Source: Faecalibacterium duncaniae
GTDB lineage: Bacteria > Bacillota > Clostridia > Oscillospirales > Ruminococcaceae
Direction of reading: 5' to 3'
Assembly: GCF_010509575.1 (NCBI RefSeq)
Contig: NZ_CP048437.1
Coordinates: 1,984,001 to 2,048,000, forward strand
DNA: 64,000 bases
Shown: positions 54,816-56,663 of the stretch, piece after piece
Numbering within the stretch: position 1 is the stretch's first letter
Layout of the letters: every line of letters starts with the position of its first letter
Position numbers and translations under genes: made by a program
The notes under the pieces: generated by a model
What the model saw: the letters and a program-made list of their open reading frames with translations, nothing else
What the model was told of the DNA's origin: nothing
The model's database searches: none

Positions 54816-55451
54816 TCAGAACACCTTGCGGCACTCCACCACAAGGCCGACCACCCGCACCTGCACCCGTTTCAGATCATAGATCTGGGGCTGGTGCACG
54901 GGGTTGAAGCTTTTGGGAGTCAGGACCACAAGGCTCCCCTCCTGACGGAAATATTTCACGGTGGCTTCATCGCCGTTGACCATCACCACAGCAAGCTGGC
55001 CGTTTTCCACCTCCGGCTGCTCCCGCACCAGGATCTCATCGTTTTCCGAAATGCCCACGGCGTTCATGCTGTCGCCCCGGACACGGAGCCAGAAGTACCG
55101 TGCCCCGTCCTTCCGGGTGATGGGGATGTAGCCCTCAATGTTTTCTTCCGCATACATGGGCAGGCCTGCACGCACCGTGCCCAGCAGCGGAGCCGTGAGA
55201 GCGGGATCGAACGGGACAGCCCCTTCGGGCAGCTTCCGCTCCTCCTGCACCGATGGAACGGCTTCGCCCAGCAGCTCCCCCACCGGCACGCCAAAATAGG
55301 CGGACACCCTGGCCAGCGTCTCGCCCGAGGGGGTCGCCCCGGTGTTTTTCCATTTGGTCACTGTGGAATTGCTCAGGCCCATCTCCTGCGCGGCCCGGCT
55401 GCGGCTGATGCCTCTGGCCTGACACAGGGCCGTGTAGCAGTCATAAAACAC
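54816..55451 (-). CDS. S24 family (LexA/CI-like) XRE repressor with self-cleavage site
   Basis: 211 residues. An N-terminal helix-turn-helix (ISRSRAAQEMGLSNSTVTKW, about 15-35) is followed by a LexA-type peptidase domain: cleavage site Ala95-Gly96 in VRAGLPMY, catalytic Ser128 in RGDSMNAVGI and Lys166 in EATVKYF. This layout is that of phage CI and related repressors that cut themselves when RecA is active. The start is GTG 55451, with AAGGAG some 11 bases upstream. Divergent from a collagen-like gene, with shared operator-like sequences between. No other phage genes are present. Confidence 0.92.
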   Translation of the reverse strand: MFYDCYTALCQARGISRSRAAQEMGLSNSTVTKWKNTGATPSGETLARVSAYFGVPVGELLGEAVPSVQEERKLPEGAVPFDPALTAPLLGTVRAGLPMYAEENIEGYIPITRKDGARYFWLRVRGDSMNAVGISENDEILVREQPEVENGQLAVVMVNGDEATVKYFRQEGSLVVLTPKSFNPVHQPQIYDLKRVQVRVVGLVVECRKVF

Positions 55452-55486
55452 AAATTTTGCACTCCTTCTTGTGCAGAACGCCGGTT

Positions 55487-55628
55487 TTCTAACCGGATTC
55501 AGATTTTCCCTTGACTTTCTGAATTTAATCAGATATTATAGCCTCACAAGCTGATTTTGGTTAGATTTTATCCACCAGACCTTCTGCGGTCTTTTCACAA
55601 TCTTACCGGAAACTCTAACCAAAGTCAA
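55487..55628. promoter_or_regulatory. Divergent promoter/operator region of the repressor and the collagen-like gene
   Basis: Plus promoter TTGACT (55511-55516), 17 bases, TATTAT (55534-55539); its spacer holds the palindrome TCTGAATTTAATCAGA (55518-55533). Minus promoter TTGACT (55628-55623), 17 bases, TAAGAT (55605-55600), with TCTAACC (55614-55620) in its spacer. TCTAACC also occurs near 55488 and its complement GGTTAGA near 55559. Confidence 0.65.
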
Positions 55629-55670
55629 GCTTTTTGAACGCAAAAATCACGACAAAAGGAGTGAAACTGT

Positions 55671-56663
55671 ATGATTGAACGACAGATCCATTTATCCTCG
55701 GGCGGCGGGGCTGCTTTGCAGGGGTACGATGGCCTGCTCCGCTTCGGCTACACCAGAAACCGGGGCATCTACGCCCTGCGGGTGGAAGCCGACGGCGAGT
55801 GGCAGGGCATGACCCTGCGGGCCTTCTGGCACCTGCCGGATGGGAACGCTGCCCCCTCCACGCTGGTGGTGGACGGCCTTGTGGAGGTGCCCGCCCTCAT
55901 CACGGCTGTGCCCGGGGAGGGGCGCATCACCTTTGAGGGCACCGATGGCACCCGCACCCTGACCAGTGCGGACGTGTGCTACTGCGTGGCCGAAAACTCC
56001 GGCACTGAGGACAGCACCCTGCCCCAGCCCGGCACGCCCGCTTGGCAGGCCCTGCTCGACCGGCTGAAAGCAGCTGTGGAAAGCGGTGCATTCCGGGGCG
56101 AAAAGGGTGAACCCGGACCGCAGGGAGAACCCGGTGCCGCAGGACCCACCGGCCCCAAAGGAGAGCCCGGCCCGCAAGGCCCGCAGGGAGAACCCGGCCC
56201 CCAGGGCCCAAAGGGTGACCCCAGCGATCCCGGCCAGTGGGAGCTGCTGGAAAAGGTGTCCCTGAACGCCGCCGCTGCCAGCTTTGAACGCACCTTTCCC
56301 ACCGAACTGCAGGCGCTGAAGGTGCTGTTTCAGGCAGGCAGCAGCCAATCCAAGGGCACGCTGCACTGGGTGTGCAGCACCAGCGATGGTGCTCAGCTGC
56401 TCAGTGCTTCTGCCCCCTGTGCTGCCAGCAGCCCGCCCACCCGCACCTTTGCCAGCTTTCAGGCACTTCCCTGCTTCGGGCAGTATCTCTGTTTTGCCGC
56501 ATCCGGCACCACGGGTGCACCGCCTGCGGTCGTTTTACCTGCCGGAAGCGGCGGCCAGAATGTGGATGCCAGCCAAAAGCTCGGCAGGCTGACCCTGACC
56601 GTGGACACCAACGTCCGGCTTGCCGCCGGTGCCACGATCGAGCTGTGGGGCGTTCCGGCCTGA
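55671..56663 (+). CDS. Collagen-like repeat protein, phage-tail-like architecture
   Basis: 330 residues. N-terminal domain (1-140: MIERQIHLSSGGGAALQGYD) rich in strands, then 14 uninterrupted Gly-X-Y triplets (Gly143-Pro184: GEKGEPGPQGEPG and so on), then a C-terminal beta-rich domain. Triplets of this kind trimerise as collagen helices in tail fibres and surface filaments. No signal peptide or sortase motif, so export, if any, would use a phage-like or unknown route. AAAAGGAG lies about 8 bases before the ATG. Divergent promoter region with the S24 repressor implies repression until damage or another trigger. Confidence 0.8.
   Translation: MIERQIHLSSGGGAALQGYDGLLRFGYTRNRGIYALRVEADGEWQGMTLRAFWHLPDGNAAPSTLVVDGLVEVPALITAVPGEGRITFEGTDGTRTLTSADVCYCVAENSGTEDSTLPQPGTPAWQALLDRLKAAVESGAFRGEKGEPGPQGEPGAAGPTGPKGEPGPQGPQGEPGPQGPKGDPSDPGQWELLEKVSLNAAAASFERTFPTELQALKVLFQAGSSQSKGTLHWVCSTSDGAQLLSASAPCAASSPPTRTFASFQALPCFGQYLCFAASGTTGAPPAVVLPAGSGGQNVDASQKLGRLTLTVDTNVRLAAGATIELWGVPA

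Follow-up and report, generated by a model that had tools for sequence, protein, structure and literature searches.

What is a phage-type repressor doing opposite a single collagen-like gene on a bacterial chromosome? The question arises at a locus in a 64-kb window (the whole stretch of DNA analysed), part of a 3.10-Mb single-contig Faecalibacterium chromosome, where a repressor gene on the minus strand faces a collagen-like gene on the plus strand across a gap of 219 bases. An earlier note on this DNA had proposed a domesticated phage switch that turns on a trimeric fibre or an adhesive protein after DNA damage. The answer that we favour, and consider somewhat more probable than all others together, is that the pair is a 'short-circuited' prophage switch, in which the lytic promoter of the repressor drives one late gene.

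The repressor, the fibre and their surroundings

The repressor gene has the following features.

54816..55451, minus strand: S24/LexA-CI-type repressor, 211 aa, GTG start, HTH at residues 9-61 (PF00717 1.5e-24, HTH_3 3.1e-9, phrog_4, LexA alignment)
55164..55169, minus strand: codons of the Ala95-Gly96 cleavage site (computed position; LexA cleavage-region alignment)
55068..55070, minus strand: codon of Ser128 (GDSM), presumed catalytic (computed position; LexA alignment)
54954..54956, minus strand: codon of Lys166 (TVK), presumed catalytic (computed position; LexA alignment)

The claim of a CI/LexA-like repressor with an intact Ala95-Gly96 site and Ser/Lys dyad was borne out, the lysine being residue 166. 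Both an HTH (PF01381) and a Peptidase_S24 domain (PF00717) score above cut-off, and residues 87-205 align with solved LexA chains, Ala95-Gly96, Ser128 and the lysine of TVK all falling in register, which supplies the Ala/Cys-Gly cleavage site and Ser/Lys pair of an S24 phage repressor. Across 13 aligned rows (window included), Gly96, Ser128 and Lys166 are invariant and Ala95 nearly so. The best phage family is phrog_4, transcriptional repressor (3.1e-32), and the protein groups with repressors of phage contigs (58-63% identity); within the genus, the nearest repressor from a different species has 43% identity. LexA itself, the host SOS regulator, was ruled out (88.5 bits vs a TIGR00498 cut-off of 110.95).

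The collagen-like gene divides into three parts.

55671..56663, plus strand: collagen-like, phage-tail-fibre-type protein, 330 aa (PF01391 1.2e-8; PHROG tail families at the repeat; BFVD siphovirus proteins)
55671..56090, plus strand: N-terminal domain, aa 1-140, beta-rich, common to phage tail-type proteins (53-61% identity in phage-assigned scaffolds; predicted strands)
56097..56222, plus strand: 14 Gly-X-Y triplets, aa 143-184 (sequence; 5-22 triplets in the best 120 variants)
56232..56660, plus strand: C-terminal domain, aa 188-330 (seen only in orthologues and their fragments; low-confidence model)

The phage tail homology of this protein extends outside the collagen repeat. Residues 1 to 129-134 match four phage-assigned human-gut scaffolds at 53-61% identity (records unannotated and marked unverified). 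One of these, a 5.1-kb record filed as phage (L078, MT838592.1), aligns over 5,019 bases, at 99.2% identity, with a chromosomal cassette (L058); it probably comes from a chromosome and, because of this identity, was set aside as phage evidence, so that three independent scaffolds stand. In the first of them (L079, a 74.7-kb scaffold of which 30.4 kb was read), the N-domain gene has collagen repeats and tail-fibre families of its own, and 5.8 kb separate its start from a terminase-large-type ORF. The second (L076) has the same N-domain-plus-collagen layout behind a GH25-type ORF, and in the third (L077) a tail-family gene lies immediately upstream of the N-domain gene. A search of IMG/VR with the whole collagen-like protein gave zero relatives. 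The structure model is poor (mean pLDDT 47.8, with blocks of 52-77 over aa 1-110), and its 67 BFVD matches at E<=0.001, the best at 7.1e-19 with this poor model, come from siphoviruses and bear the names collagen, tail fibre or BppU domain. In the PDB nothing matched at E<=0.001, the best hit (3.5e-3) being a phage baseplate; many of the listed PDB matches are unrelated beta-sandwich capsids, which we took as meaningless. As for the C domain, a search within a set length range returned 41 hits, none beyond its own orthologues and their fragments.

The adhesive surface protein of the original proposal did not survive this comparison. The protein has neither a hydrophobic N-terminus nor an LPXTG sorting motif (as read directly from the sequence), and its N domain is that of phage tail proteins; on such grounds, 'adhesin' is better read as phage tail fibre. 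An LPXTG collagen-like adhesin of the Scl type was ruled out for the same lack of LPXTG and hydrophobic N-terminus and by its score (NF038330, 36.3 vs 400 bits). That the fibre has no obvious exit route counts against the switch reading.

Apart from the collagen-like gene, no phage gene was recognised in the 64-kb window, either among the ORF lists by eye or with a set of 25 phage marker proteins, the reach of which is limited. The genes that would mark a complete prophage (integrase, terminase, capsid and tail) went unrecognised among the window ORFs (by eye, and with zero matches to these markers of limited reach), and the tube/sheath and baseplate genes of a tailocin are absent beside the fibre (ORFs by eye; sheath and baseplate markers unmatched). 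The sole marker-type match, 60 residues to a DUF6291-like gene of locus L080, lies at 17266-17445 in an ORF read as a host primosomal gene. The assertion that no other phage genes are present thus holds for the window within the limited reach of the markers, with the amendment that the collagen-like gene is itself of phage type. Nor does the pair always lie inside complete prophages, since in the one genome examined it lies outside one.

One further feature marks the edge of the unit without being part of it.

56666..56857, plus strand: C-terminal remnant of an EAL-domain gene (PF00563 1.1e-12, match from 56666)

The neighbourhood looks worn, with this EAL remnant, the homology of which starts 3 bases past the collagen-like gene stop, and with ABC transporter fragments. 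At E<=1e-15 the remnant is matched in its own genome only, the other 30 genomes of the genus having none. When orthologous sites were compared, no part of window 47.4-56.9 kb was found beside the neighbouring dehydratase gene in any of the 14 relatives read, and in one relative (L072) the window stretch 44.2-47.4 kb comes after other genes. Several other elements lie close by: the fragments at 53072-53739 resemble an amino-acid ABC transporter (PF00528 in part); a RelB/YoeB-type toxin-antitoxin pair (PF04221, PF06769) occupies 52408-52930; a BspA-type leucine-rich lipoprotein-like gene of unusual base composition (53966-54772) lies on the same strand as the repressor, 43 bases downstream; and a long GC-rich hairpin seen by eye (56866-56921), possibly a bidirectional terminator, separates the EAL remnant from the dehydratase gene.

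The control region

The gap holds two promoters and four operator-like sites, the latter without strand.

55511..55539, plus strand: collagen-like gene promoter, TTGACT-17-TATTAT (10/12 consensus matches; comparable late-gene promoters in 10 other gaps read)
55600..55628, minus strand: putative repressor promoter, TTGACT-17-TAAGAT, facing the collagen promoter (9/12 consensus matches; less certain)
55488..55503: operator-like site O1, TCTAACCGGATTCAGA, exact dyad, upstream of the collagen promoter (motif match; binding presumed)
55518..55533: operator-like site O2, TCTGAATTTAATCAGA, perfect 5-bp-arm dyad, fills the 17-base spacer of the collagen promoter (motif match; binding presumed)
55550..55565: operator-like site O3, one mismatch, just downstream of the collagen promoter (motif match; binding presumed)
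55614..55629: operator-like site O4, two mismatches, overlaps both the -35 and the spacer of the presumed promoter of the repressor (weakest; binding presumed)

The gap is AT-rich (39% GC vs 59%), and a consensus scan of 54750-57000 found two sigma-70-type promoters, both in the gap, vs 0.5 (sd 0.6) in shuffles. The two sigma-A promoters that had been noticed there were thus both recovered, the repressor one being less certain. As they face each other, their predicted transcripts would overlap. The comparison covers 11 gaps, namely that of the window, those of the nine cassettes described below and that of a regulator-only locus (L086), and every one of them has a promoter (9 to 12 matches) aimed at the late gene and placed 60 to 106 bases away from where the repressor starts. 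Six of these gaps (L085, L086, L105, L111, L127 and L092) have their best repressor promoter back-to-back with this late one, and in four no repressor promoter reaches the threshold, which makes the facing repressor promoter of the window its least certain element; weak, and in a layout unlike that of the other cassettes, it counts against the switch reading.

TCTAACC occurs three times in the gap (at 55488, at 55559 on the complement and at 55614) and once elsewhere in the 64 kb, but 34% of simulated gaps hold some 7-mer repeated at least three times, and the repeated k-mers found across the gaps read mostly do not go beyond simulation. These motifs and the palindrome at 55518, both present as had been noted, do not look like separate elements; judging from their letters, they appear to be one operator type, a 16-bp dyad TCTRA-N6-TYAGA. 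Two exact dyads lie in the gap vs 0.002 expected, and none elsewhere in the window; the whole genome has five, the two in the gap being 30 bases apart, and the reversed pattern gives three. Because the motif was drawn post hoc from these very sites, the enrichment is support rather than proof, and the two-mismatch level of O4 is reached at 29 other places in the window. The three exact dyads outside the gap lie between ORFs, inside an ORF of a prophage-like stretch, and where an ORF taken for a ribosomal protein begins. A wide regulon was ruled out, these three being the only other exact dyads in the genome and having no clear target; so was a structured RNA, as 54700-57000 has no match in Rfam.

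Relatives of the repressor and of the fibre

Is the pair an oddity of one genome? The repressor was followed through 55 relative loci. Named genome contigs supplied 15 of them, and the other 40 were taken from the 62 matches (in 59 genomes) of an order search of 394 genomes at E<=1e-35; two own matches, one on G040 and the 19 weakest others were left out. Context labels (cassette, sigma, solo) were set by eye from the ORF lists of a simple caller. Nine of the 55 are small cassettes of lysis, fibre or late-type genes, with head and integrase genes unrecognised in the stretch read; five lie beside sigma-like genes only, nine are solitary and 32 are mobile element or unclear, 'mobile element' being a default label that takes in some unclear loci. 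The gene content of the cassettes, besides the repressor, is as follows.

L080 (F. gallinarum): Cro-type HTH gene, DUF6291-like gene, fibre genes, GH25, holin
L085: collagen-like gene, LRR fibre-type gene, amidase, holin (the contig ends just past the holin)
L103: sigma-like regulator, amidase
L105: XhlA-like gene, holin, GH25
L111: HNH-type gene, GH25, small proteins
L127: amidase, holin
L092: holin and broken endolysin (other mobile-type genes further off)
L081 and L082 (the latter on a 7.7-kb contig): sigma-like regulator, phrog_1084, small ORF

PHROGs assign lysis families to seven of the nine and tail families to two, a tally that leaves aside the repeat matches with a tail label within the L105 endolysin; a 'tail' reading for L081 and L082 is resemblance only. 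These last two cassettes occupy one and the same site, next to FBPase, in two species. None of the ten flanking genes tested (cytidine deaminase, TraX, D-Ala ligase, DUF5685, GH130, rubrerythrin, PFK, FBPase, HAD hydrolase and a sigma-region-4 gene) belongs to a phage structural family. A tree of 59 rows (L107, L133 and L140 are missing, their full ORF not having been caught) places the window repressor with metagenome proteins and with phage contigs L041, L042 and L075. On this tree the cassette label changes seven times (shuffled mean 9.4), at least five of these changes being forced by well-supported branches, and the cassette layout therefore appears to have arisen several times. The description of the locus as a system that could not be named is softened accordingly, since small cassettes in which a repressor goes with fibre, lysis or late-type genes recur in Oscillospirales.

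A few features of these loci deserve mention in their own right. In several cassettes (L081:8575-9636, L082:2550-3605 and L103:10731-11843) the repressor is followed by a regulator, some 350-370 aa long, in which sigma-region-4-like stretches are repeated. In four genomes (L120, L124, L128 and L131), an S24 repressor lies beside small sigma-like ORFs and an adjoining gene read as RpoN, with no fibre or lysis genes. The S24-plus-lysis cassette L111:6626-10311 is about 5 kb from a gene read as recA (L111:15166-16338), and the fibre-type gene of L085 is leucine-rich in look, as is the window gene at 53966-54772.

Among 31 genomes of the genus, the pair and a full-length collagen-like match are found only in its own, and any collagen-like match at E<=0.001 in 13, own included; the N domain is present, at 55-59% identity over more than 100 residues, in seven other genomes. 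In the database, clusters of the fibre have as many as 7,013 members. The best 120 of 2162 database hits are all full-length (307-355 aa), all start MIER, 117 of them end LWGVPA, and they vary mainly in triplet number (5-22) with the frame kept, the mean majority residue of the N and C domains being 98.5%; a set of 120 best-scoring hits favours intact alleles. A few frame-broken alleles (P0263, P0273, P0276 and P0277) were seen by eye among the 41 C-domain hits.

Eight 20-kb stretches around N-domain proteins (L052-L059) gave no relative of the window repressor by tblastn at E<=0.001. In five (L052, L053, L055, L057 and L058) of the seven such stretches viewed, small sets with an M15-type endolysin lie between host genes. 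Sets of fibre, M15 endolysin, XhlA-like and holin genes were observed between host genes at L052, L053 and L055-L058 in several Faecalibacterium species (e.g. L058:7808-12612, the only one for which PHROG names were obtained), with head genes unrecognised and no S24 relative found near; four of these sets share a flank read as glgB/glgC. The window's own genome has just a 30% identity match, over part, to the M15 endolysin.

Two sets of counterparts are under purifying selection. The five genes of the L081/L082 cassettes have dN/dS values of 0.06, 0.29, 0.50, 0.29 and 0.45, and the glgB-side cassettes L055-L058 (gene name by eye) have values of 0.03-0.48 in all 24 pairs made, out of 30 possible, two ORFs not having been caught. 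That the glgB-side cassettes have no S24 relative near counts against the switch reading.

Proposed origin and use of the pair

How might the pair work? We propose that the phage-type S24 repressor would hold its own lytic promoter shut by binding the TCTRA-N6-TYAGA operators, and that this promoter would now drive the single collagen-like tail-fibre gene directly, not an early phage operon. DNA damage would then lead to RecA-stimulated self-cleavage at Ala95-Gly96 and release of the promoter, so that a presumably trimeric fibre, of some putative benefit to the cell, would be made without head, tail tube or lysis genes. The unit would descend from a prophage, and its counterparts, in which a repressor faces lysis, fibre or late-type genes, would have formed repeatedly in Oscillospirales. 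What remains of the earlier idea of a domesticated phage switch is then a phage-type repressor that has kept its cleavage residues, operator-like dyads within the spacers of the two promoters, a fibre-type protein with collagen repeats and the lack of a surrounding prophage, all consistent with this scheme; the adhesive protein is what had to be given up.

The repressor and the fibre/lysis genes of prophages usually lie near opposite ends. An internal deletion could thus have left these two genes as a prophage scar, transcribed on repressor loss, useless to the cell and being lost. We find this unlikely, if well worth weighing. The EAL remnant 3 bases past the collagen stop, the nearby ABC transporter fragments and the existence of frame-broken fibre alleles are all in its favour; the five or more label changes on the tree are what repeated decay would give, L080 with its Cro-type HTH and DUF6291-like genes kept between repressor and fibre resembles an internal-deletion intermediate, and L092 is down to a holin and a broken endolysin. 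However, the promoter, dyads, ribosome site and both frames of the window pair are intact, the best 120 of 2162 variants stay in frame while repeat number changes, and the counterparts are under purifying selection, L081 and L082 even sharing their site in two species. A scar moreover names an origin, which is compatible with present use.

The N domain of tail proteins is usually the docking end. The fibre might be made just when a prophage, resident or incoming, undergoes induction, and might dock by this domain on the baseplate of that phage, changing particle binding. This we regard as improbable. An N domain conserved with phages next to a unique C domain, S24 control that would synchronise the fibre with prophage induction and the lack of a visible secretion signal would all fit, but the window's own genome has no second N-domain protein at E<=0.001, and hence no resident partner with the same dock was seen. 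Just as doubtful is the broader proposition that chromosomal late-gene cassettes triggered by DNA damage form a class of their own, distinct and recurrent in Oscillospirales; the Faecalibacterium pair would be its fibre-only form, with the fibre loaded in trans on co-induced prophage particles and re-aiming them. That the repressor is a free-standing regulator, with the collagen-like gene a chance neighbour under other control, is hardly credible. Solitary S24 regulators do exist (the nine loci labelled solo among the 55), and of the five exact dyads in the genome three are outside this gap, but those three have no clear target and the other two are at and inside the collagen promoter.

If the short-circuited switch is real, a phage switch can shrink until a single regulator and a single late gene are left, and can be retained in that form by a gut commensal, and repressor-controlled fibre/lysis cassettes would be a repeated outcome in an order of gut bacteria. 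If its fibres reach phage particles, particle binding would be changed in trans. Among the matches listed, such cassettes are not described in the titles and abstract openings of open-licence PMC literature.

The defective prophage PBSX of B. subtilis keeps its particle genes. SOS-controlled lysis genes of defective prophages are already known from PBSX (PMC5589764) and from the pyocin cluster of P. aeruginosa, which keeps tail genes (PMC4834629), and what is new here is a repressor with a single fibre gene. The pyocin and PBSX lysis genes are likewise defective-prophage genes kept by the host and switched on by DNA damage, and the relatives in which a repressor accompanies holin or endolysin genes are similar in logic; the window unit is fibre only, without a lysis gene, whereas the pyocin cluster retains its tail genes. 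Within the same host genus, Faecalibacterium prophages have been described in PMC11792537 as rich in DGRs, with mitomycin C used for induction; these are prophages, unlike the window unit, and the words collagen, repressor, remnant and incomplete are absent from its main text. The collagen-like or BppU-domain tail proteins of metagenomic siphoviruses in BFVD (A0A8S5LGH5 and others) have an N domain and a Gly-X-Y stalk as in the window protein, which differs from them in being an orphan with no tail genes around. Finally, the window repressor has its HTH and S24 domains, Ala-Gly site and Ser/Lys pair in common with temperate-phage CI/S24 repressors (PHROG 4; 33-35% identity to those of staphylococcal phages and of Faecalibacterium phage Aster), but whereas in these phages the promoter feeds cro and the early genes, that of the window feeds one fibre gene.
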